Origin: an uncultured Lachnospiraceae bacterium
Lineage (GTDB): Bacteria > Bacillota > Clostridia > Lachnospirales > Lachnospiraceae
Assembly (NCBI GenBank): GCA_947629545.1
Contig: CANREE010000016.1
Span: 1-41,435 of the forward strand
Reading direction: 5' to 3'
Length of the DNA stretch: 41,435 nt
Below the pieces are notes generated by a model. The model had not been told where the DNA came from and did not search any database. It saw only the letters and a program-made list of their open reading frames with translations. Shown here one piece after another: positions 1-10,302 of this stretch (the stretch's first letter is position 1; each line of letters opens with the position of its first letter). The position numbers were made by a program, and so were the translations under genes.

Positions 1-16
1 CAATAATAGCGTACAT
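1..16 (-). CDS. rplU: 5' end of rplU (ribosomal protein L21), cut by window edge
   Basis: Only the first five codons lie in the window and read MYAII, the usual start of bacterial L21. An AGGAGG ribosome site at 25-30 sits eight bases before the ATG at 16. The identification rests on this start, on the leader and promoter in front of it, and on the upstream RNase G / radical SAM genes, which are normal rplU neighbours in Clostridia. L21 is a 50S subunit protein, normally followed by prp and rpmA (not visible here). So few residues are visible that another gene starting MYAII cannot be excluded. Confidence 0.6.
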
Positions 17-30
17 ATATGGCACCTCCT

Positions 31-123
31 CTTTATCATTACTCGCCAACTACGGTGTCCCCGCAGCCTGTCCGCAAAGCAGAACCGGCCCGGAATCTTT
101 CAGAACCTCATTGTGCGGCACAC
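31..123 (-). ncRNA. Probable L21-type leader RNA of rplU
   Basis: About 90 nt of 5' leader lie between the predicted start of transcription (near 123) and the rplU ribosome site. On the minus strand GTGT-G-CCGCA near the 5' end can pair with TGCGG-GG-ACAC about 55 nt downstream, enclosing smaller stems. L21 leaders that control rplU are known in Firmicutes. I recognise the position and a closing stem, not the full consensus, so the family assignment is tentative. Confidence 0.45.
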
Positions 124-129
124 TAAGAA

Positions 130-158
130 ATCATATCATTTCATCGGTCAAATGTCAA
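130..158 (-). promoter_or_regulatory. Promoter for rplU
   Basis: Minus-strand TTGACA (153-158), 17-bp spacer and TATGAT (130-135) form a near-consensus sigma-A promoter. It lies downstream of the M15 gene and gives rplU its own promoter, independent of the RNase G transcript and of the inserted cassette. Confidence 0.8.
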
Positions 159-216
159 CCGAAAAAACAAATAATTTCTGGCGGCGTCCGAAATCCTGTC
201 AAACCTATCTGTATCG

Positions 217-1149
217 TCAATATCCTGCGCCCCGGCAGTCGAAATGCATGTAATCCGGCGTATATTTCCATTCCCCGCCCCAGGTGAATCCTGCCTCCTT
301 AAAAAGTCTGACGCACAGATCATCCGGATCGATCTTATAAGGAAAATCCTGCGTCCGGTCCAGATAACGGACTCCTGCGGCCGGGGTACATATCTTTTCC
401 TCATCCGTATTATATCCGGAAATGATGTAAGGATTATAAAGCGGGTTGATATTAACGGCAAGTCCCCTTGCGTGATAGGAAAGACGGTTCGTATTGGCAA
501 CGCTGCGGAAATTAAAACACGACGTATTGTTGTCCGAGCTGGACGCCTCGTCGTTGGCGTCGTATTCATCTACCAGAATCATTTTCTCGATCGGATACCG
601 GGCGTCGTACAGCTGCCGGAAAACAGAAAGGAGAACGTCCGTAATATGCCGGTTGCTGATCATTTCGCCTACATGGATATTCCCCTCCAGATCATAATGA
701 AGCAGCTGCATATATCGAAGGTCCTCGCGCGAAACCGGGCAGCCGTCCCTGTAAGATTTCCCGTAAATCCTCGCAAACGTTGCATCGTCCAACGGCGCCT
801 GCCAGAAGAATGCATCCGTCCCGGTCAGGGCGACGTCCTCTTCCGAAAGGATCTTACCCGGAGTAATATCGATCAGCGCATCATCTTTATTCTCAGCGGC
901 CGTCGACGGTTCCTCAGGCTGCGCCGGCGGCTCTGTTTCCGCCGGCAGGGTATCTTCCGGCGCGGTTGTCTCATCGGAAGTAATAATCACGATTTTGCTT
1001 ATGGCTGCAGACGGTTCCAGCGTCTGTATCTGCGGCCGGCCGGACCTGAGTCCCGCAGCTTCCGAACAGCCGGTCAGGCAGAAAATCAGCAGAACAAATG
1101 AGCCCAGCCTCAGAGATCTTTTATGTCTGTCTATTTCCGGAGCGCGCAT
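217..1149 (-). CDS. M15-type (VanY/CwlK-like) lipoprotein peptidase, copy 1, zinc ligand Asp replaced by Asn
   Basis: A 310-residue lipoprotein. A hydrophobic signal ends in LTGC (Cys28 lipidated), followed by a Thr/Pro/Glu-rich linker to about residue 90. The C-terminal domain is M15C/VanY-like: SCFNFR (210-215), then S-Y-H-A-R-G-L-A-V-N (224-233), and DYMHF near the end. M15 enzymes hydrolyse peptidoglycan stem peptides using a His/Asp/His zinc site. Here the ligands would be His226, position 233 and His302, but 233 is Asn where the family and the second copy in this window have Asp. Activity may be lost or changed. The ATG at 1149 overlaps the adenylation gene by 29 bp and has AGGA five bases upstream, which suggests translational coupling. 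It is the last gene of the cassette and is clearly homologous to the protein at 7307-8188. Confidence 0.85.
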   Translation of the reverse strand: MRAPEIDRHKRSLRLGSFVLLIFCLTGCSEAAGLRSGRPQIQTLEPSAAISKIVIITSDETTAPEDTLPAETEPPAQPEEPSTAAENKDDALIDITPGKILSEEDVALTGTDAFFWQAPLDDATFARIYGKSYRDGCPVSREDLRYMQLLHYDLEGNIHVGEMISNRHITDVLLSVFRQLYDARYPIEKMILVDEYDANDEASSSDNNTSCFNFRSVANTNRLSYHARGLAVNINPLYNPYIISGYNTDEEKICTPAAGVRYLDRTQDFPYKIDPDDLCVRLFKEAGFTWGGEWKYTPDYMHFDCRGAGY

Positions 1150-2656
1150 ATAATTCCTTTAACCCCCTGCGGTCTGCTTTGCCGTTCGCGTTTTTGGGCA
1201 TCTGTTCCAGATAAATGTATCTGTTTGGCATCATATAGCGTGGGATCCTCGTCGAAATACCGCTCGAAACCGTTTTGGAATCGATCTTCTCAGCAGCCGT
1301 ATAAAGCATTAAAATCATCTGTCTGTCTTCATCGTAAACACAGACACATTCGCTGATTTCAGGGATCAGCGCGGCGGCAGCTTCGATCTCCCCGAGCTCG
1401 ATCCGATATCCCATCCGCTTGATCTGAAAATCCTTTCGGCCATGATAGACGATATTTCCGTCCGAATCATAGGAAGCGATATCTCCCGTACGGTAAAACC
1501 GTTCCTGCTCCGATGAAGCCGTTTTCAGGCAAATAAAGCGGTCTTTTGTCTTTTCCGGATCTTTATAATATCCGAGAGACAGGGCGGCGCCGCCGATATA
1601 CAGCTCCCCTTCCGTCTCTTCTCCGGGCTCGACGGGCCGTCCGCCGTCATCCAGGATCACGGCTTTGACATTCCCGCATGCACGTCCGATCGGGAGCCGT
1701 TCATCATCCGCAAAATCCCTGCAAAGCTCAAAAAACATACTGACATGGGTCTCTGTAGAACCATACATATTCACATATCGCGCATCCGGCAGATATCGTC
1801 TCCAGTAATTCAGGTATCTGACCGGCATTACCTCCCCGATGAAAAAAATATACCGAAGGAACGCGGGCAGCTGTGTGTCAAAACCGTTCAGTCTGGAAAC
1901 GACCGTAAGCGCGGACGGAACCCAGAAAATGGAAGTTATACGGTTACTGTTCAAGCAGTTGACCAGACGCGCAGGAGAAGAAAAATACTCCTGCGGGATT
2001 ACAAAGGTACTGCAGCCGAAACGAAGCGGAACAAAAATGTCATGAAGCGATATGACAAAATGGAACGGCACCTGACTGCCCAGAACATCTTCCGGCTCAT
2101 AGGGAAATTCTTTCTCAAGCCAGCAGAGGTTATTAAGGATCATGCGATGGCAGCCTGCCACGCCCTTGGGAACTCCTGTCGAACCGCTGGTAAACAGAAT
2201 ATAAAGCGGATCCATCTCGCTTAAGCCGTTTCTGATCCGGGCGAGAAGTTCCGTATCTTCCGGCATTCCGCTCAGTTCATCAAAATCCCAGACCGGACAT
2301 TTAAGATCAAAATGTTCTGCCAGATACCGGCTGTCCTGTTCTGTAACCATCGCCACCGGGTCAAGTACAGAAAGGATCGTCCGGATTCGCTGCTCAGGCA
2401 TGGAGGTATCGATCGGACAATAGCAGCACCCGCCGTACAAGACGCCGAGAATGGCCACCGCCATCGACGCGCTCTTCTCCATAAAGACAGCCACCGGCCG
2501 GCCGGAAGCCTTAAGGCTTCCGATCCTGCTGCCGATGGCTCTCGCTGTGCGTACGGCTTCCGTAAAAGTATACGTACGTTCTGGGTCGCTGTAAACACAC
2601 CGGTCAGGATAAGAGACCGCTGTCTCTTCCAGAAATTCCAGAACATTTTTCTTCAT
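1121..2656 (-). CDS. DltA-like adenylation (AMP-forming) enzyme loading a carrier protein
   Basis: A stand-alone ANL-superfamily adenylation domain of 511 residues, the size of DltA. Visible core motifs are the P-loop FTSGSTGVPKG (155-165), MYGSTET (297-303), YRTGD (388-392), the hinge region GRKDFQIKRMGYRIE (406-420) and the catalytic Lys in NANGK (Lys493). It would activate an acid as acyl-AMP and pass it to the carrier protein encoded at 5892-6122. In DltA and NRPS domains an Asp in the PF-x-FD-x-S motif binds the substrate's alpha-amino group. The aligned segment here is PFHFVIS, with Val201 at that place, so the substrate is probably not an ordinary alpha-amino acid. The start is the ATG 15 bp after the frameshifted gene; the ribosome site is weak. 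It is encoded with MBOAT, ACP and SGNH genes, a dlt-like set. Substrate unknown. Confidence 0.85.
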   Translation of the reverse strand: MKKNVLEFLEETAVSYPDRCVYSDPERTYTFTEAVRTARAIGSRIGSLKASGRPVAVFMEKSASMAVAILGVLYGGCCYCPIDTSMPEQRIRTILSVLDPVAMVTEQDSRYLAEHFDLKCPVWDFDELSGMPEDTELLARIRNGLSEMDPLYILFTSGSTGVPKGVAGCHRMILNNLCWLEKEFPYEPEDVLGSQVPFHFVISLHDIFVPLRFGCSTFVIPQEYFSSPARLVNCLNSNRITSIFWVPSALTVVSRLNGFDTQLPAFLRYIFFIGEVMPVRYLNYWRRYLPDARYVNMYGSTETHVSMFFELCRDFADDERLPIGRACGNVKAVILDDGGRPVEPGEETEGELYIGGAALSLGYYKDPEKTKDRFICLKTASSEQERFYRTGDIASYDSDGNIVYHGRKDFQIKRMGYRIELGEIEAAAALIPEISECVCVYDEDRQMILMLYTAAEKIDSKTVSSGISTRIPRYMMPNRYIYLEQMPKNANGKADRRGLKELYARSGNRQT

Positions 2657-2671
2657 CCGACAAAACCCCCG

Positions 2672-3207
2672 CTATTTCTCAGGTATTACGATATACTCGA
2701 TCGCGTCGACCACGTCCTTGGTCGTATAGATCTTTAACTGGGTATTCCCGGCCGTATAGGCATACGTGCCGAATTTCGCTTCATCCGCATTATAGGCGTT
2801 GCCGTAAGCGGCAAGGACCTCTTTTTTCGTGGAGCCGATCTTGATGCCCTCGGGAGTCGAGACGGCGGCGTCAAAGATATATACGGATTCAACGCAATCC
2901 TTTTTGTTTACAGGATATGTGCAAAGCTCGAAGCCCTTATAGGTATATACCTTATTCTTCCCCTGATACGCGCAGCTGTCACGTTCAAACGTGGAACTTG
3001 CCTTCCAAGCGCTGTCAGAATTCCGGCTGCTTCCGCCCCCATAGAAATAACTGTTTCACCGGATTTGAATTCGTATTTTACTTCTTCTTTCGTTTCCGTC
3101 TTATTGGCCGATATTGGTCCGCCAATCGCCAAAGACGGCACTGCCGATGAAATCATCATCGCGGCTGCAAGTCCAAAAGCAGCCAGAACCTTAAAATTCC
3201 TTTTCAT
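2672..3207 (-). pseudogene. Secreted two-repeat protein, broken by a one-base frameshift
   Basis: The gene starts at 3207 with AGGAGG upstream and a clear signal peptide (ending near SLAIGG). The reading frame is good to about 3007 (…GILTALG). It then continues in another frame as KASSTFERDSCAYQGKNK… to a TAG at 2672. One extra A in the minus-strand GGAAGG at about 3001-3006 would restore a product of about 178 residues. The restored protein looks like two similar half-domains, each with a short helix ending in LG or YG and then a Y-T-Y strand: ISMGAEAAGILTALG… and TPEGIKIGSTKKEVLAAYG…. This resembles SmpA/BLIP-like folds. It sits 15 bp from each neighbour inside the cassette. Either a true pseudogene or a sequencing error in a short A run; function unknown. 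Confidence 0.75.
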
Positions 3208-3222
3208 ATGTTCTCTCCTCCT

Positions 3223-4299
3223 TTATTGTATATAAAATTGTTTAATATAACCCAGTTTGGCAAATTCCTCTTCCTGAGAGGCTTTCATCTGATCGTAAAA
3301 ATCACATTTTTCCTGCCAGACAGAATCAAGGTCGATTCCTTCAGAAGCGGTTCCCCTGCGGTCATAAACCCCGGGAAGCCCAAGAAGGATCGGGCCGAAA
3401 TAACGGGCCATCTTCTCTGCCCCATATACGTTCATATGAAGGCCTGCATCATAGGTATCGGTCGCAAAGTCAATACCGATTTCATCAGAGGCTTCAAGGC
3501 AGTTTATATACAGAAGATTATGCTCCGACGCATATTCCTCGATCTGTATCTCCCACTGGTCATACCATGCCGGGTAAAGGGACGGCGCTTTCATCAGAAC
3601 CAGCTGAATTCCGTTATTCTCGCAGAGAGCACGTATTCTCTCCAGATATTCCCATGAGCGGGAGTCAAAGGAATAATCAGATCTTCGGCGCTCTACCGGC
3701 AGATCTCCCGCCGGTCTTATGTCCGCCCGGAGGTAATATCCGTTATGGGCTACCTTTCCGCTCTTCATGAAATAAGTCAGATCGTCTGCCTCAAGTTCCG
3801 CAAAACGGGAATGGAACCGCAGGATCGGAAAAACGTATTCTATTATATGTTCATCTTCCATCATGGTTGTGCGGATTGCGTTCCACTTGGAAGCGGACCA
3901 GCGCATACCATCCAGCGTCATACGGTTGTAGCTCTCATTATCCTGGTCGAACTGCTGCATGGCCGAGACGTTAAAGACAACGACGCCCGGCGTCTCGTAC
4001 TTCAGTGTATCCTCCAGAAGATAATAAGACTGGGCAATCAGCTGCTGCGCGTTGCCGCGGATATAACTGGTAATGCCGAATTCCCGCCAAAGCACGATCG
4101 GAGAAATGTTTTCGTAAACTTCACAGTTCCCGAGAAACAGCACATCGTGAGGCGTCGTCTCTTCATAGTATTCGGAGGTAAAATTCCCTTCGACGACCTG
4201 TCCCATATATTTGGGCATCAGCAACCTCTGGAGCCCGGCGATCACAGTTACGCCAACCGCCGCCAGAAGCAGAACACAGGCCGGTTTTTTCCATCTCAT
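3223..4299 (-). CDS. DltD/SGNH-like membrane-anchored protein of the MBOAT cassette
   Basis: A 358-residue protein with one N-terminal membrane segment (about 6-28) and an extracytoplasmic SGNH-like domain. The block holding the nucleophile in GDSL/SGNH proteins reads VLFLGNCEVYE (53-63), so Cys59 stands where Ser is usual. The C-terminal catalytic block is present as D284-A-G-L-H288. Other parts (SYIRGNAQQL, YYLLEDTLKYE, VFPILRFHSRF) are typical of the DltD-like proteins encoded beside MBOAT genes in Clostridia. In dlt and alginate/cellulose acetylation systems the partner takes the acyl group moved across the membrane by the MBOAT protein. The gene starts 12 bp after the MBOAT stop, so they are co-transcribed. 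The acceptor polymer cannot be read from the sequence. Confidence 0.8.
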   Translation of the reverse strand: MRWKKPACVLLLAAVGVTVIAGLQRLLMPKYMGQVVEGNFTSEYYEETTPHDVLFLGNCEVYENISPIVLWREFGITSYIRGNAQQLIAQSYYLLEDTLKYETPGVVVFNVSAMQQFDQDNESYNRMTLDGMRWSASKWNAIRTTMMEDEHIIEYVFPILRFHSRFAELEADDLTYFMKSGKVAHNGYYLRADIRPAGDLPVERRRSDYSFDSRSWEYLERIRALCENNGIQLVLMKAPSLYPAWYDQWEIQIEEYASEHNLLYINCLEASDEIGIDFATDTYDAGLHMNVYGAEKMARYFGPILLGLPGVYDRRGTASEGIDLDSVWQEKCDFYDQMKASQEEEFAKLGYIKQFYIQ

Positions 4300-4311
4300 G
4301 GATTCCGCCTC

Positions 4312-5895
4312 CTAAAACTGATTGTAAATGAACTGGCTGGCATTGTACCCGTGTCCGTAGCATCCGGCCACAAGTACCGTGACAAACAGCAGGAATACCG
4401 CCGCGAAACGTACAACAAGCGGTCTGGCGGCAAGCTTCTGCCGGACGCTGCCGGTCTCCTGCAAAATACTGATCAGAAGCATAAGGAGCAGCCCGATGGC
4501 CAACACAATGAAATCCGCAGCAGTAAGTCCCAGTTCCGCAAACCGTCCGTCAAACAACTGCGAAAGGCGCCCTGTTGCAAGCAGATTTCCCAGCATCGCA
4601 AATACCGTTCCGAACGGATAGTACTGAAACATCAGCAGGCCCGAAAACAGAAGGCCGGTACGTACTTTCTGGAACGCGCCGTATACGCTTCCGTCCGTTT
4701 GCGGAAAACGCCTGTGAAAAGCGCGGTACAGTTCCGTAAGTTCCTGCGAAACCATCATGACGATGCCATTGGCAAGCCCCCACAGGATAAAGCCCCAGGC
4801 CGCGCCGTGCCAGATACCGGTTACAAACCATACGATCAGATTAGCAATGTATACCGGAAGCTTTTTCGTGACCTTTTTCATTCCCAGCCTTCCTGCCAGA
4901 CGCGAAACAGCCCTGCAGAAACGGCTCGTCGATACCGGAAAGAAAATGTATTCCCGGAACCATCCGGTCAGCGTCATATGCCATCTGCGCCAGAACTCCG
5001 AGAGATTCTTTGCTCCGAACGGTCTCTGGAAATTCTCGGGGAGCCGGATGCCGAAGCACTGCGACACGCCGATCACAATATCCATGCAGCCCGAAAAATC
5101 AGCGTATAACTGAAGCGTATAGCCCAGCATACCGACAAGGACATAAATTCCATCGTAGACATCCGGCGCCGCCGTGATCGTCGCGACGGCCGGGGCAATA
5201 CGGTCGGCGATGACCAGTTTCTTAAAAAAACCCCAAAGGACGCGCCAGAGTCCGAAGGTAAACTGCGTTCCGTCGAAAGGATGTTCTTCAAAAAGCTCTT
5301 TCCTCAGCTGATCGAAGCGGCTGATCGGTCCGCTGACCATCTGCGGGAAATAGGTGACGAAAAGCATGAACCGGAACAGATTCTTCTCCGGCCGATAACG
5401 GCCGCGGAAGACATCGATCAGATAGCCCATCGTCTGAAAAGTATAGTAAGAAATACCCAGCGGAAGCACCCAGCTGATCTGCGGGACGGCTCCTTCTTCC
5501 GGGCCCAAAAGCACATGCAGATTCCCAAGGAGAAAATCCGTGTACTTTAACACCACCAAAATCCCGAAATTAAGCAGGATCCCTGTCGTCATAAGACGTT
5601 TCTTCTGCTTTCTTATCTGTGCCTGATACGCCTTTTTCTGTTCTTTGTCCGGCTTCTGTTCCTGAATATACGTCTGTGCCGCACTGTCTACCCTGCCGAT
5701 CCGAAGCGCAAGAAACCACGTGCTTACCGCGGTGATCATCGGATACAGCAGATAAACAGCCCCGCCGCCTGCATAAAACAGAAAGCTGACAGCCAGAAGC
5801 ATGATCCACTGAAACCTTTTCGGAACCACATAATACAAAATGGCCGCAGCGGCGAAAAAGGCTAAAAACTCATAAGACACCAGGGACATGATCAT
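4312..5895 (-). CDS. MBOAT O-acyltransferase (AlgI/DltB-like)
   Basis: A 527-residue polytopic membrane protein. It carries the MBOAT signature: YFPQMVSGPISRFDQL (182-197), YADFSGCMDI (264-273), LPENFQRPF…FWRRWHMTLTGW (His306) and the catalytic IWHGAAWG (His363). Such proteins move an acyl group from a carrier protein or CoA in the cytoplasm to an acceptor outside. Charged residues 68-100 form a predicted cytoplasmic loop rich in Lys/Gln. The ATG overlaps the carrier protein's stop as ATGA, which suggests tight coupling; a second ATG two codons later is possible. Placed with an adenylation enzyme, ACP and SGNH protein, it would be the transferase step of a dlt-like pathway. It could use another acyl group than D-alanine. 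Confidence 0.9.
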   Translation of the reverse strand: MIMSLVSYEFLAFFAAAAILYYVVPKRFQWIMLLAVSFLFYAGGGAVYLLYPMITAVSTWFLALRIGRVDSAAQTYIQEQKPDKEQKKAYQAQIRKQKKRLMTTGILLNFGILVVLKYTDFLLGNLHVLLGPEEGAVPQISWVLPLGISYYTFQTMGYLIDVFRGRYRPEKNLFRFMLFVTYFPQMVSGPISRFDQLRKELFEEHPFDGTQFTFGLWRVLWGFFKKLVIADRIAPAVATITAAPDVYDGIYVLVGMLGYTLQLYADFSGCMDIVIGVSQCFGIRLPENFQRPFGAKNLSEFWRRWHMTLTGWFREYIFFPVSTSRFCRAVSRLAGRLGMKKVTKKLPVYIANLIVWFVTGIWHGAAWGFILWGLANGIVMMVSQELTELYRAFHRRFPQTDGSVYGAFQKVRTGLLFSGLLMFQYYPFGTVFAMLGNLLATGRLSQLFDGRFAELGLTAADFIVLAIGLLLMLLISILQETGSVRQKLAARPLVVRFAAVFLLFVTVLVAGCYGHGYNASQFIYNQF

Positions 5896-6122
5896 TCATC
5901 TTCTTTCAGCCGGCCGATCAGACGCATCATCGCTTTCACAGAATTAAAATTCTCAGGAATGATGGCCTCCGACGGAATGGATACATCAAGCACGTCGCGG
6001 ATCTGCGTTACAAGCATCACCAGCTCAAAGGAAGTCAGGATCTCGTCGTCAACCAGATGTTCATTCGTTTCATAGTCTGCATCCGGGTTTATATCGTTCA
6101 GGATCTCAAGCAGTTCATCCAT
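5892..6122 (-). CDS. Acyl carrier protein (DltC-like) for the cassette
   Basis: A 76-residue acidic four-helix carrier protein. The ATG at 6122 is chosen because AGGAG lies eight bases upstream. Ser31 in ILTSFELVML is the expected phosphopantetheine site; the residue before it is Thr rather than the usual Asp. Helix 3 with IPSEAIIPENFNSVKAM fits ACP/PCP folds. It would receive the acyl group from the adenylation enzyme (1121-2656) and offer it to the MBOAT protein, whose gene overlaps its stop codon. It lies 17 bp after the transglutaminase stop. Confidence 0.85.
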   Translation of the reverse strand: MDELLEILNDINPDADYETNEHLVDDEILTSFELVMLVTQIRDVLDVSIPSEAIIPENFNSVKAMMRLIGRLKEDE

Positions 6123-6139
6123 GCTTCGAACTCCTTTCA

Positions 6140-7216
6140 TCAGGGCGTATGCGGATAAAGGGAACGGTCAAACGCAAAACAATTGCCGTGACTTGCAGAA
6201 TAATTCAGCATCTGCGCATCCGTCCACAGGCAGAAATATCCGCCAAGCCGTCGCGGCGTCGCGTCAAAATGATACCAGTTGCCGTCGCTTAACTGGATAA
6301 GATTCCAATAGTGGCCGTTATCCGTATAACGGAGCACCTCGATACACGGAATACCGCACCGCATCAAAAGGGCCGCCGATACGGAATAATAAGTGAAACA
6401 GTCCCCATGACGTCTGCGGAATCCGTTATAGGCTTCCAGAACCCAGTCCCTGGTCGCTGCATGTCCGCTGTATGTAAAGCTTCCGCGGACCCATGCATAG
6501 ATAGCCTCTGCTTTCTGCCGGTCCGTCATGCCGTCATTCACGATTCCGGCCAGAATGGAGTCCGCCATTGCGGAAACCGTCTGCCACATTTCCTGCTGTT
6601 CCGGCGCCACCTGCGTTATCGCCTTATAGGGCCAGGCGGCCGCGCCGGAACTGTCGAACGTGTAAGTGACGCCGCCGACAGTGACCTGCGTATCATGGGC
6701 CATCACGCCGTTGTCATACAGATAATATGTCATGCCGCCATCATTGATCAGACCGGTCTTCATATAACCAACTTCGTCGAAATAATACCACTCGCCGTCG
6801 ATCTGCTGCCAGCCGTTCGTCGCAAACGTGCCGTTGGGAAATCTGTAATACCACGTGACATCATCCAACATCCAGCCGGAATAACGAAACGGCATTCTGG
6901 TTCCGGCCCCCGTTTCATTAAATGCCCATACATTGCCGTCGATTGTCAGCACCTGACCGGCGCGCATGGTGCCGTCCGTCGGACGAAGATAATAGATCTG
7001 ATGATTATCAGTCAGCCACCCGGTATGCGCGTATCCGTCTTCATCGAAATAATACCAGGGGGCGTTTTCGCTGGCCTGGTACCAACCGGTGACATCCGTG
7101 CCGTCGTCATTGCGGCAGCGAAAACCAATCCCGTCATGATACAAGGTCGCAGCCGCCGATGATACGGCAAACAGACAGGAAAACATTATTGAAAATAGAA
7201 TTATGCGTGTTTTCAT
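6140..7216 (-). CDS. Secreted transglutaminase-like protein with cell-wall-binding repeats
   Basis: 358 residues. A signal peptide (1-23) is followed by four or more aromatic cell-wall-binding repeats (CW_binding_1 type, about 42-190; for example GWYQ…WYYFDEDGYAHTGWL and GEWYYFDEVGYMKTGL). The C-terminal half (about 205-340) is a transglutaminase-like domain with the complete triad: Cys273 in HGDCFTYY, His302 in NGHYWNLI and Asp318 in YHFDATP. Such domains can cross-link or cleave peptide bonds; the repeats would hold it at a choline- or glucan-like wall polymer. It is the first gene behind the cassette promoter at 7265-7293, so surface anchoring and the acylation genes are probably expressed together. 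The start ATG is the only good one; no strong AGGAGG precedes it. Confidence 0.85.
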   Translation of the reverse strand: MKTRIILFSIMFSCLFAVSSAAATLYHDGIGFRCRNDDGTDVTGWYQASENAPWYYFDEDGYAHTGWLTDNHQIYYLRPTDGTMRAGQVLTIDGNVWAFNETGAGTRMPFRYSGWMLDDVTWYYRFPNGTFATNGWQQIDGEWYYFDEVGYMKTGLINDGGMTYYLYDNGVMAHDTQVTVGGVTYTFDSSGAAAWPYKAITQVAPEQQEMWQTVSAMADSILAGIVNDGMTDRQKAEAIYAWVRGSFTYSGHAATRDWVLEAYNGFRRRHGDCFTYYSVSAALLMRCGIPCIEVLRYTDNGHYWNLIQLSDGNWYHFDATPRRLGGYFCLWTDAQMLNYSASHGNCFAFDRSLYPHTP

Positions 7217-7264
7217 AGTATCTCATCCGTCCTGTTCTTTCCCAAACGGGTTTATCTATTCCAT

Positions 7265-7293
7265 ATCATATCGCTCATTTATAGTTGTGTCAA
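7265..7293 (-). promoter_or_regulatory. Promoter of the dlt-like cassette
   Basis: Minus-strand TTGACA (7288-7293), exactly 17 bp, then TATGAT (7265-7270). It lies in the 90-bp gap between M15 copy 2 and the transglutaminase gene, giving the cassette (7216 to 217) its own strong promoter. Confidence 0.8.
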
Positions 7294-7306
7294 TCCGTAT
7301 TCTTTT

Positions 7307-8188
7307 CTAATTTTCCTTTTCAAAATGCATATAATCCGGCGTGTTCTCCCAGCTGCCGCCCCAGGTAAAACCGGCTTCCGCAAAAAGCCGGTAACAGAGA
7401 TCATTCTCATTGATCTTGTGGGAAAACGTCTTTGTCCTGTCCGTATAAACAGCGCCGTTTTCAGGGACGCAGATCCCGGTGCTTTTGGATAGGTACGGGT
7501 TATACAGGGGGTTGATATCGACAGCAAGCCCCAGCGCATGTCTGGAGAGGCTGCCTCCGCCTGTGATAACGCGGTAATTGAAACAGGATGTATTATTATC
7601 GGAACAGGAAGCTGCGTCATCAGCGTCGTATTCATCCACAAGAATGATCTTTTCAATCGGATACGCTTCCTCATAAAGCCGATGAAAGATAGAAAGCAGA
7701 TCGCTGCTGATCGCCTTGTTGCAGATCAGCTCGCCAACCCTTACATTGCCGTCAAAATCATAATGAAGGACCTGCAGATAACGAAGATCGTTCCGCATAT
7801 CAGCGCCATCCTTATAGGATTTGCCGTTAATCCGTTCAAAGACCTCATCCGTAACCGCGCTCTGCCAGAAAAACTGATCAGCATTCGAGGCGTTAAGCGA
7901 TTTGACCGGCATCATCTGACCGGGTTTTACCGCATGCGGCAGCGGAAGCGCTTCCGTCGTCTCCCCGGTTGACCGGGTTTCCTCTTCCGTCGGCTCTGTT
8001 TCCGTACTTTCAGGTGTTTCCGATCCAGGCATCAACTCAATCTCCAAAAGTTCATGCGGCTTCACGCCGCAGCCCGTAAGGACAGGGCCGCCAAGCACAG
8101 CCGCCGCAAGAATTACCGCAAACACGCTTTCCTTTCGTTTCCCGGATCTGCCCGTCTTCTTCATCACAGCTTTACCGCCACTGCTCAT
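7307..8188 (-). CDS. M15-type (VanY/CwlK-like) lipoprotein peptidase, copy 2, intact zinc site
   Basis: A 293-residue paralogue of 217-1149. The signal ends in LTGC (Cys40), then a Glu/Thr-rich linker, then an M15C-like domain with SCFNYR, S-R-H-A-L-G-L-A-V-D (His217, Asp224) and DYMHF (His288), a full zinc triad. Expected role: cutting of peptidoglycan stem peptides (D,D-carboxypeptidase or L,D/D,D-endopeptidase) at the outer face of the membrane. The ATG at 8188 has AAGGAG eight bases upstream and overlaps the RNase G gene by 17 bp, so translation is coupled to rng. A second possible start (8164) has no good ribosome site. It stands at the RNase G side of the insertion, as its paralogue stands at the rplU side. 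Confidence 0.87.
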   Translation of the reverse strand: MSSGGKAVMKKTGRSGKRKESVFAVILAAAVLGGPVLTGCGVKPHELLEIELMPGSETPESTETEPTEEETRSTGETTEALPLPHAVKPGQMMPVKSLNASNADQFFWQSAVTDEVFERINGKSYKDGADMRNDLRYLQVLHYDFDGNVRVGELICNKAISSDLLSIFHRLYEEAYPIEKIILVDEYDADDAASCSDNNTSCFNYRVITGGGSLSRHALGLAVDINPLYNPYLSKSTGICVPENGAVYTDRTKTFSHKINENDLCYRLFAEAGFTWGGSWENTPDYMHFEKEN

Positions 8189-9422
8189 ACAGGGGTCTCC
8201 TTGTCTTCTTCCTTGTGATCTCGACCAGTCCCAGTCTGGTCATATCCACAACTGTGGTCTTCACCGGATCACCGGAACAGTGCCCTGTCAGGATCCGCAG
8301 CAGTTCCTCCCGGTCTTCGGCCGACTCCATGTTGATGAAATCGACCAGAATGATTCCCGACAGATTCCGAAGGCGAAGCTGCCTCGCCGTCTCCTTCGCG
8401 GCCTCCAGGTTGATCATGCGCATGGTCTCGCGCATGGTTTTCCGACCCGTGAATTTGCCGGTATTCACATCGATGACCGTCATGGCCTCCGTCTGTTCAA
8501 TGACCAGATAAGCGCCGGAAGAAAGCCAGACACGCTTCTGTATGGCGTCGTGCAGGTTCTTCTCGATGGAATACAGCTTCGCAAGAGAAAGCAGCGGATC
8601 CTTATAAAGGCGGAGCCTGCCGGCCATATCCGGCTGTTCCTGCCTCAGGTACGAATTCAGCCGGTCAAAAATCTCTTCGTCGTCCGTCACGATCTCATCC
8701 ACTGTCTGCGCGTCATGATCACGCAAACGGGCCGCGTAAAAAGGCATTTCCTCGTAAAGCAGGCTGAAGCAGGTCCGATGGGGAGCCGAAGTGAGGATCT
8801 GTTTCATCTGTTGCGTCAGCCGGCTCATTTCGCCGAGGATCTCCCCCTGAGGCGCCTGATAGGCGTTTGTCCGCACGATCAGTCCGAACGTCTCCTCCTT
8901 TGCAGGGCGAAGGAATTCTGTCGTTTTCTTCTTCCAGTCGTTATCGCTGATCTTGCCGGAAAAGCGGATATAATTCTTCCGGCCGGAAGGATCCGCCGAT
9001 AAGACGCAGTAGCGGCCGGTAAGGGTAAGTTCGGCGGTAAGTACCGGATCCTTCGTCTTTACCGCATCTTTCAGCACCTGAACGATGATCTCGTCGCCGG
9101 GACGTAAGGGGCGCGGCGTTCTTGGGGCCATGTCTTTCGTTCCCATGCGAACAATTTCCTCTTTGCCGGAGAACCGCGCCTGTATCCGGGAGGTAAGCCA
9201 CGGCTCCGGATTAGCCTCCAGACTGTAGTAGCCGACTGCGCCTCCGCCCAGATCAACAAACGCGGCACGGATGTTTGGCACCACATCTTTTACTTTGCCA
9301 ATATAGATATTGCCCAGATTCGACGGCTCCTGATCTTCAAAATCAAGCTGGACCGCCCGCGTGTCATCCATCAGGGCGGTCAGGATCCGTCCGTCAAGCC
9401 TGGTAATGATCAGTTTATTCAA
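8172..9422 (-). CDS. rng: Ribonuclease E/G family protein (RNase G)
   Basis: A 416-residue endoribonuclease. The S1-like RNA-binding part is near the N-terminus (GNIYIGKVKDVVPNIRAAFVD). The catalytic domain has AMTVIDVNTGKFTG and GIILVDFINME, the two Asp-bearing motifs that bind Mg2+. It is shorter than RNase E and lacks the C-terminal scaffold; I see no Zn-link CPxC pair. The start is TTG at 9422, overlapping the stop of the preceding gene (TTGAATAA), with GGGAGAAG just upstream; upstream ATGs in the frame belong to the previous gene's region. Roles in the family are rRNA 5' end maturation and mRNA decay. It follows the radical SAM/DUF2344 pair, as is usual in Clostridia, where rplU normally comes next. 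Confidence 0.93.
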   Translation of the reverse strand: MNKLIITRLDGRILTALMDDTRAVQLDFEDQEPSNLGNIYIGKVKDVVPNIRAAFVDLGGGAVGYYSLEANPEPWLTSRIQARFSGKEEIVRMGTKDMAPRTPRPLRPGDEIIVQVLKDAVKTKDPVLTAELTLTGRYCVLSADPSGRKNYIRFSGKISDNDWKKKTTEFLRPAKEETFGLIVRTNAYQAPQGEILGEMSRLTQQMKQILTSAPHRTCFSLLYEEMPFYAARLRDHDAQTVDEIVTDDEEIFDRLNSYLRQEQPDMAGRLRLYKDPLLSLAKLYSIEKNLHDAIQKRVWLSSGAYLVIEQTEAMTVIDVNTGKFTGRKTMRETMRMINLEAAKETARQLRLRNLSGIILVDFINMESAEDREELLRILTGHCSGDPVKTTVVDMTRLGLVEITRKKTRRPLYEQWR

Positions 9423-10302
9423 TGTCTTCTCCCAACGCCTCAAGAGGCACCAAACTGCGGCCGCATCCGCCGTCTCCATCTCCACCGAAATCCGCATAAA
9501 CCTCTTCACGCTCTGCCTGAAACGTGAACGGAGCCAGTTCAAGTCCCATAAAATCATAGAGCGCCTTCATGACAAGCTCCGGCTTGATGTTATCGGTACT
9601 GCCGGTGCAGACCTGAAGGAATACTGCATCCGAAGGCTCATTCACCGCACCGGAAATGATCACCGGAAGCTTTCTTCCGTTCGGCGTTGCTGCGCCGGGA
9701 ACAATGCCGGCCGGGCTTGCCGCGGAAGCCGATGAGGAAAGCCGGTCGGAAATACGGTTCGGAACCTGCGCCGGACATTCTTCGTCCGGAACCGCCCATA
9801 CCCGCTCCATCCGATAGATCAGCGGTTTCAGATCCATCTCTTTCTCTCCGCTTTTCGTCTTCTTCGTGACCGGGATCTGCGGCTGCGCGTAAAACCGCTC
9901 AAGCGCCGCAAAAAAAGCCTCCAGATCTTCCGGCTCCTTCCCGGGCCTGAACGCCAGCACGTAGTCGGCGGCGGCCACCAGCGACATGGCGCTTTTGGCA
10001 GAATCGTCCAGACGTCGGAAGGAAATGGCTTCCATGCCCTCCGACATGACCGCGTTCATCCGCCGGACCATCTCCGCAGAACTGTACGCCGAGTTCACTT
10101 CAATGTCCAGATACTCGCCGTTGCTTAAAAGACCCACGCCCAACGGGGCCGCGAAGGACATGATCTGATGGGGGCTGAAGCCGCCGCTGTAGCAGATGTC
10201 CACATCCGCCCGGCGCATGACCTTCTGGAAATACCGCATGATATCCAGATGTCCGATGAATTTCATGGCGCCCTGCTTGCGGAACTTAATTCTTATCTTC
10301 AA
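9415..10302 (-). CDS. DUF2344 / TIGR03936 radical-SAM-linked protein
   Basis: About 295 residues. The N-terminus [19 protein letters not shown] and the segment YSGGFSPHQIMSFAAPLG are characteristic of the TIGR03936 family, which is encoded directly after, or fused to, TIGR03960 radical SAM proteins. The start is TTG at 10302 because GGAGGAGG lies eight bases upstream; the GTG at 10311 is too close to that site. It overlaps the radical SAM gene by 17 bp and RNase G by 8 bp, so the three are translated as a unit. The exact biochemical role is unknown; a link to RNA or translation is inferred from constant association with rng-rplU-rpmA. Residues of about 175-210 form an Ala/Ser/Pro-rich linker. 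Confidence 0.9.
   Translation of the reverse strand: MKIRIKFRKQGAMKFIGHLDIMRYFQKVMRRADVDICYSGGFSPHQIMSFAAPLGVGLLSNGEYLDIEVNSAYSSAEMVRRMNAVMSEGMEAISFRRLDDSAKSAMSLVAAADYVLAFRPGKEPEDLEAFFAALERFYAQPQIPVTKKTKSGEKEMDLKPLIYRMERVWAVPDEECPAQVPNRISDRLSSSASAASPAGIVPGAATPNGRKLPVIISGAVNEPSDAVFLQVCTGSTDNIKPELVMKALYDFMGLELAPFTFQAEREEVYADFGGDGDGGCGRSLVPLEALGEDIE

Follow-up and report, generated by a model that had tools for sequence, protein, structure and literature searches.

What does a Dlt-like set of genes do when it lies between rng and rplU, and is it there to carry out D-alanylation, or something else? The question is raised by a stretch of 41,435 nucleotides (the window) from an uncultured Lachnospiraceae bacterium, which is one entire contig (G000:C16; GenBank CANREE010000016.1, assembly GCA_947629545.1) of a 2.95-Mb genome that is 83% complete. 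Its rng-rplU gap of about 8.1 kb is filled by a cassette of eight genes, every one on the minus strand, at the positions given by an earlier reading of the letters alone (hereafter the original prediction). The cassette is probably a system that acylates an extracellular component of the envelope by means of a carrier protein and an MBOAT/SGNH pair. Its genes, motifs, residue changes, distribution, incongruent trees and purifying selection are established from sequence, while the catalytic steps, the acyl group and the acceptor are what we infer from them. The predicted distinct envelope-modification system is supported in a changed form: MBOAT-SGNH acylation as such is known, and the variant would be a cassette fed by an acyl carrier protein (ACP), with a fused shuttle, a Cys-SGNH protein and exchangeable ligases.

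The cassette resembles Dlt (DltA, DltB, DltC, DltD and DltX) in its AMP-ligase, carrier protein, MBOAT, SGNH protein and proposed acyl-Tyr step. It nevertheless fails the cut-offs of all the Dlt models applied: the ligase scores 274.1 bits against 559.85 for the DltA model TIGR01734 and 286.8 against 476 for PRK04813, the MBOAT 168.7 against 375 for the DltB model TIGR04091, and the ACP 22 against 68 for the DltC model. The ligase does pass the cut-off of the AA-adenylation subfamily (333 vs 317 bits). Model scores for the ACP and the SGNH protein are weak, the latter falling below the cut-off of Pfam Lipase_GDSL_2, and both are clear from gene context. The prediction of a Dlt-like acylation cassette distinct from canonical dltABCD therefore stands, and a canonical Dlt identity was rejected on these scores and on the pocket residues described below. 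Elsewhere in the 83% complete window genome, the DltA model, the only one searched there, found no other match, which answers the question of a canonical dlt in this genome in part. The same-genus genome G005 holds the cassette as well as a DltA/DltB pair that passes PRK04813 and TIGR04091 (468.7 bits for its DltB), with 544 vs 560 for TIGR01734. Two genomes of the genus have dltA-dltB pairs close to the canonical form (L124, L125), next to a gene that is aminotransferase-like by eye. Further differences from Dlt are the shuttle motif fused to the MBOAT, the lack of the DltA D-Ala residues in the ligase, a Cys instead of Ser in the SGNH protein, and the presence of further genes, for the transglutaminase-like, the small secreted and the M15 proteins.

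The MBOAT matches PF03062 (1e-21) and has the conserved His of GIWHGAAW, GIWHG aligning with GFWHG of DltB. Its C-terminus is FIYNQF, an acyl-tyrosine shuttle motif, and a C-terminal FxYxxF is found in 48 of 50 loci. In PatA the Tyr of the C-terminal hexapeptide carries the acyl group, a task reported to fall to DltX in Dlt, and MBOAT/SGNH pathways outside Dlt are stated to have no such carrier protein (PMC12148441). The five other full-length MBOATs in the window genome end in FxYxxF, unlike DltB, and the DltB of G005 has no such tail. No separate DltX-like open reading frame (ORF) of at least 20 residues with an FxYxxF tail exists besides the MBOAT in window positions 1-9600, and the same scan in six relatives gave only one chance-like antisense ORF (217 residues, G004). 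The cassette is thus like PatA/PatB and related acyl-CoA pairs in its MBOAT tail and secreted SGNH partner, and unlike them in that its ligase and ACP genes make the donor appear to be an acyl-ACP from a dedicated ligase. Its front end (ligase and ACP) would be Dlt-like and its back end (the MBOAT with FIYNQF) PatA-like. Other clostridial loci, with the codes SMxYFGLICK and DVKxFGLNCK, also keep ligase, ACP, MBOAT and SGNH genes together, the first three close to each other, and combine a carrier with a fused shuttle (LIYANF, FIYAQF and looser forms such as LLYANF). Unlike the window, they have an SGNH Ser in all 18 aligned rows, and the window's transglutaminase-like protein is unmatched in L018-L053.

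The SGNH fold is assigned from a structure model and a fold search. In the model, Cys59 stands two residues past the first core strand (53-57), at the position of the superfamily's Ser. This block I nucleophile is Cys in 47 of the 50 loci and Ser in G178, G241 and G101, and the available text of a 2022 SGNH review names Ser as nucleophile and mentions no Cys (PMC9487903). Asp284 and His288 are invariant in 25 rows, with the spacing DxxxH rather than DxxH; in G054 and G136 an Asn replaces the Asp. Two points here weigh against the preferred reading set out below: the spacing differs from PatB Asp302/His305, and the model is partial (mean pLDDT 68, with 117 of 358 residues below 50). A sequence search against the PDB gave no match of value. 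Ser-type relatives were seen in L213 (8176-9396), L216 and L217; the first of these, from G178, keeps the transglutaminase-like gene, while its stretch yielded no ligase.

Which acid, then, would be activated? The ten-residue code of the window ligase is VIHFFGMVSK, against DLMVFGTAVK for near-canonical DltA. Val201 occupies GrsA position 235, usually the Asp for the amino group, Lys is present at 517, and Ser300 replaces the proline of YGPTE. In most adenylation enzymes for amino acids, position 235 holds the amino group of the substrate; the residue there is small or aliphatic in alpha-hydroxy- and alpha-keto-acid enzymes, and is accompanied in StsA by replacement of the conserved proline (PMC11253843), which was equated with the YGPTE proline by working from LgrA numbering. 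Val235, the proline change and Ser331 go together in all seven Val-type loci, Ser331 also occurring in some loci of the DAK type discussed below. Asp and Pro are both kept in the six Asp-type same-genus alleles read and in the DAK-type allele of G014; outside the genus, the proline position is Ser in both G068 and G160, where position 235 is Asp and Asn, respectively. DltA of Bacillus cereus makes contact with the amino group of D-Ala through Asp197 and discriminates between the enantiomers by Cys268 (PMC8972799). The window residues aligned to these are Val and Ile, and those of near-canonical DltA (L124, L125) are Asp and Cys. Here Cys268 was presumed to lie in the LFCGE column. Because the amino-group Asp has become Val and the YGPTE Pro has become Ser, as reported for alpha-keto- and alpha-hydroxy-acid enzymes, D-alanine is unlikely as the acyl group of the window. 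The "logic of D-alanylation" of the original prediction would therefore not extend to the acyl group, both the amino-group ligand and the enantioselectivity Cys being replaced. With StsA, EnSynA1 and engineered TycA the ligase shares the small or aliphatic residue at 235; it differs from them in standing alone beside an envelope MBOAT and in having Ser, not Met, at the proline position. Unlike alpha-keto- and alpha-hydroxy-acid domains of nonribosomal peptide synthetases, it has no ketoreductase among the Pfam matches of its cassette.

Four observations count against a non-amino acid. McyG has Val at 235 and is described as a Phe-activating domain (PMC11253843), so Val is no proof of lost amino-acid use. 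The Ser of G068, with its Asp235 retained, makes the two changes separable. His239 is common to Asp and Val types, which could mean related substrates, and the Val-type block is one clade, so that the linked changes amount to one origin. On the McyG precedent, and given a Phe-rich pocket, the ligase might use a hydrophobic or aromatic amino acid, or else a short fatty acid, the product being an aminoacyl or fatty-acyl ester. We regard this as unlikely, though it is the rival that survives best: the proline change and Ser331 accompany Val235 in seven of seven loci, which speaks against the amino acid, and passage of the AA-adenylation cut-off speaks against a fatty-acid ligase.

It is slightly less likely still that the cassette is a divergent Dlt whose ligase activates D-Ala after all, yielding D-alanyl teichoic or lipoteichoic acid. 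After general amino-acid adenylation, the best NCBIfam models for the ligase are indeed the two DltA models, the ACP, MBOAT and SGNH partners are those of Dlt, no other DltA was found in the 83% complete window genome, and Asp-type sister alleles exist. Against it stand scores far under every Dlt cut-off, the Val and Ile at the Asp197 and Cys268 equivalents, and G005, where cassette and DltA/DltB pair coexist and so are not alternatives.

The preferred reading, a carrier-dependent acylation of the envelope, can be set out in five steps. The ligase would adenylate a small carboxylic acid. For the window allele, a lactate- or pyruvate-like acid of the alpha-hydroxy or alpha-keto kind is most likely, and not D-alanine. 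The activated acid would then be loaded on the ACP. The MBOAT would bring the acyl group through the membrane and link it to the Tyr in its own FIYNQF tail, from which the secreted SGNH protein would accept it on Cys59; the final acceptor would be a hydroxyl (or an amine) on a polymer of the wall or membrane. Placing, processing or remodelling this modified polymer would fall to the M15 lipoproteins, the small secreted protein and the transglutaminase-like protein with its wall-binding repeats.

Could the target instead be a protein or peptide, with the Cys-SGNH protein and the transglutaminase-like enzyme forming amides or crosslinks on wall proteins? We hold this to be about as improbable as a divergent Dlt. 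The candidate Cys nucleophile, seen in 47 of 50 SGNH loci, goes together with a transglutaminase-like gene, present in 30 of the 35 family genomes surveyed below, and clustering of the neighbouring genes for polymer-synthesis functions gave 12 recurrent clusters, seven of them unannotated, with no recognised partner. On the other side, the MBOAT-SGNH pairs named in the available parts of PMC12148441 act on envelope polymers. Transglutaminase-like domains are also often proteases or structural. In the window protein the Cys, His and Asp candidates are present on reading the sequence; that the domain may be a protease or binding module also tells against the preferred reading.

Is the cassette a newcomer at this site? 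The same-genus sample comprised 26 genomes, the window's own (G000) included. rng is followed by the cassette in 10 of the 26; eight have rng, cassette and rplU on a single contig (the window is counted, its rplU being cut by the contig end), and in G009 and G023, where contigs are broken, the cassette or its first gene comes after rng. rng and rplU adjoin directly in only four (G001, G002, G018, G025), contrary to the adjacency that had been called usual. In 11 others trkA-trkH adjoin rng instead, and one interval (G020) was unreadable. Within the stretches fetched, bactofilin and NlpC/P60 genes are found in 10 of the 11 trkA-trkH genomes, about 9 kb further on in G003 and on a separate contig beside rplU in G022. 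These intervals are L087, L089, L091, L092, L094, L095, L097, L099, L100, L105 and L109; those of G005 and G024 also contain an acyltransferase-3 gene, whose function is likewise one of envelope modification. Since cassette, empty and trkA-trkH versions all occur across the 26 genomes, the cassette is one allele at a variable rng-rplU site, and has long been resident there. It is also found at other sites in G001, G025, G005 and, by a contig edge, G024. In G001 (L085) it is a moved cassette, upstream of a gene with a thrS-like start by eye, rng and rplU adjoining on another contig.

The predicted recent, locus-specific insertion is hardly tenable in the face of these counts, and an insertion unique to the window genome is rejected, as relatives carry the cassette at the same site. 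Its base composition does depart from the surroundings, as the original prediction had suggested checking: positions 217-8188 are AT-richer than the flanks, with a GC content of 0.510 against 0.548 for the remaining window, lower than in any of 127 equally long flank windows (0.532-0.562), and GC at third codon positions is 0.542-0.633 in the seven cassette genes measured against 0.675-0.812 in 14 minus-strand flank ORFs chosen by hand. Marker genes make G002 the nearest relative; its site is empty, and it has weak ligase matches only (at most 30% identity, the best two within a large open frame). Related cores in other genera of the family nevertheless also count against recent arrival, and the allele pattern indicates exchange across a longer time, so that only allele exchange remains as a horizontal event. 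The nearest named records of the ligase are uncultured Lachnospiraceae assemblies labelled Lapin, with 83-85% identity over nearly the full length.

Exchange of alleles was examined with a marker tree of the radical SAM, DUF2344 and Rng proteins in 24 of the 26 genomes (G003 was removed by hand and G020 had no row); each row is the best tblastn piece per protein, some partial, with internal stops turned into X. It places G000 next to G002, which has no cassette, and beside the Asp-type G004 and the Val-type G015. Monophyly of the seven Val-type genomes, a group defined after the types were known and before the tree was made, is rejected (p-AU 5.7e-7). A tree of ligase, MBOAT and SGNH protein from 14 genomes, in which long branches lead to G005 and to the outgroup, G014, separates Val from Asp types with support 100/99. 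Between G000 and G013 identity is 93% for the MBOAT and 72% for Rng. The transglutaminase tree, with the rows of G021 and G023 under half filled, is less resolved and groups the Val-type G000 and G015 with the Asp-type G021. One copy of G009 (G009:C20) and G012 are nearly identical, so there are fewer distinct Val-types than loci counted. Since the marker genes reject a common clade of Val-type carriers, the acyl module has moved between lineages. The ratio of nonsynonymous to synonymous change (dN/dS) is 0.07-0.15 for ligase, MBOAT and SGNH protein (12 comparisons) and 0.15-0.17 for the second M15 lipoprotein, M15B (three comparisons); with values this low, these are maintained proteins.

How far does the cassette extend beyond the genus? 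A Cys-SGNH profile was run against 200 Lachnospiraceae genomes, roughly one for each genus. Matches at E <= 1e-15 occur in 94, and 35 exceeded 400 bits, a cut set after the list was known. Among these 35 stretches an MBOAT is present in 34, a transglutaminase-like gene in 30, the small secreted gene in 30, a ligase in 27 and an ACP in 26; ligase, ACP, MBOAT, SGNH and transglutaminase-like genes are all together in 22. M15 genes occur in only four of the 35, and therefore belong to the window's cassette type and not to the core. The window cassette can thus be read as an allele of a Lachnospiraceae cassette made of transglutaminase-like protein, AMP-ligase, ACP, MBOAT, SGNH protein and small secreted protein. 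As to whether the eight-gene set recurs elsewhere, the core does and the full set is not fixed: M15A is absent from three Val-type loci (L014, L015, L017), and beyond the genus few cassettes have any M15 gene. A ligase-fed system is less well served by eight of the 35 genomes, which have SGNH and MBOAT genes and no ligase match in the fetched stretch; several of the missing genes in the survey fall at contig ends, but of these eight genomes only two (G222, G182) have the stretch interrupted in that way. Five loci (L209, L210, L211, L212, L213) have transglutaminase, MBOAT, SGNH and secreted genes with no ligase or ACP match in the fetched stretch, and cassettes of this kind may use acyl-CoA.

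The DAK-type code is the majority form, in 22 of the 40 loci with a readable code. An Asp/Glu racemase-family gene, the largest of the 12 neighbour clusters (16 loci; four others are cassette genes), lies in the stretch in 16 of the 22 DAK loci and in none of the 18 with other codes, these being related loci rather than independent events. Code and racemase gene together point to D-Asp as the candidate acyl group of the DAK type. Working against this assignment, six of the 22 have no racemase in the fetched stretch, and the one racemase scored against NCBIfam passes both the aspartate-racemase subfamily model and a cysteate-racemase model. Lys at 239 occurs in glutamate codes. The ligase, and hence the acyl group, probably differs between versions of the cassette.

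The remaining genes and sites are collected in Table 1.

Table 1. Positions and supporting evidence of the features in and around the cassette, in window coordinates.
Feature	Position	Strand	Evidence or remark
rng (RNase E/G family); bounds the interval on its upstream side	8172..9557	-	PF10150
M15A, M15 D,D-carboxypeptidase-type lipoprotein	7307..8188	-	Pfam PF13539 1.1e-22; HxxxxxxD zinc-ligand pattern intact
Promoter-like TTGACA-17-TATGAT, sigma-70-like	7265..7293	-	5' of transglutaminase gene
Secreted protein, choline-binding-type repeats and transglutaminase-like domain	6140..7216	-	PF19127, PF01473, PF01841
ACP, candidate phosphopantetheine Ser37 in ILTSFELV	5892..6140	-	Weak NCBIfam ACP/DltC matches; kept across cassettes
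MBOAT O-acyltransferase, 527 aa	4312..5895	-	PF03062; FIYNQF encoded at 4315-4332
SGNH-fold transferase (putative), Cys59 codon 4123-4125, Asp284, His288	3223..4299	-	Alignments, structure model, fold search
Small secreted protein, frameshifted in this assembly	2673..3207	-	No Pfam, NCBIfam or PDB match at cut-offs used
Stand-alone DltA/NRPS-type adenylation enzyme (AMP-ligase)	1121..2656	-	Code VIHFFGMVSK; Val201 codon 2054-2056; Ser300 codon 1757-1759
M15B, M15-type lipoprotein, zinc-ligand Asp to Asn (codon 451-453)	217..1149	-	PF13539 2.9e-20
Promoter-like site of rplU	130..158	-	By eye also in G001 and G002 (both with empty rng-rplU)
rplU, first codons only	starts at base 16	-	Truncated by contig end

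The cassette was predicted to have its own promoter, and a sigma-70-like site stands in front of the transglutaminase gene; a TTGAC-type promoter is also seen by eye 5' of the cassette in the four relatives read (G015, G012, G013, G004). The first M15 gene falls outside the predicted unit: because M15A lies upstream of that promoter and begins within the last part of rng, the two genes probably share a transcript. Its zinc-pattern Asp is kept in seven of seven copies. Asp is a zinc ligand of M15 enzymes. In M15B the pattern is HxxxxxxN in all eight Val-type loci that have it, which correspond to seven distinct gene copies in six genomes (L017 and L093 are the same G008 gene, and G009 has two copies); it is HxxxxxxD in five of five same-genus loci of the Asp type, as well as in G068, G160 and G024. 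Since the Val-types form one clade, the Asn change linked to them counts as one origin. All Val-type M15B alleles read have Asn at the zinc ligand and the gene is under purifying selection, possibly as a binding protein instead of a peptidase. The gene of the small secreted protein has an open frame in relatives L098, L104 and L093. Its AlphaFold model, with four sequences as input (L013, L014 and L015 left out), is useless (mean pLDDT 36); a search against PDB profiles found nothing at E <= 1, and the sequences scanned matched no Pfam or NCBIfam family, apart from a sub-threshold DUF3909 match in one homologue.

Beside the cassette, the rplU leader (window 16-130, minus strand) is strongly conserved by eye in seven genomes, cassette present or not. 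An Rfam scan gave no match at the gathering threshold and a single weak, implausible one at E 0.58, and the leader is a candidate ribosomal-protein leader.

What would such a system mean for the family? Judged by titles and the starts of abstracts, with subscription papers mostly outside scope, no description of this gene set was recognised in the literature. If the proposed reading is true, dlt-like genes of gut Lachnospiraceae should not be labelled D-alanylation by default, the SGNH protein would be a candidate cysteine-dependent transferase, and the ligases would offer a natural experiment on adenylation enzymes switching between amino and non-amino acids. Envelope charge and reactivity may then vary among close relatives in a manner that might be perceived by phages, immune receptors and the antimicrobial peptides of the host. 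Tentatively, and with somewhat less than even confidence, one may go further and picture a family-wide modular Cys-SGNH/MBOAT chassis with swappable ligases (for D-aspartate with its racemase, for another amino acid, and in the window for a lactate- or pyruvate-like non-amino acid), exchanged within the genus largely at rng-rplU, giving chemically different envelopes in close relatives, with the loss of the M15B Asp as part of the switch. If this is so, exchange of the acyl module would resemble serotype switching.

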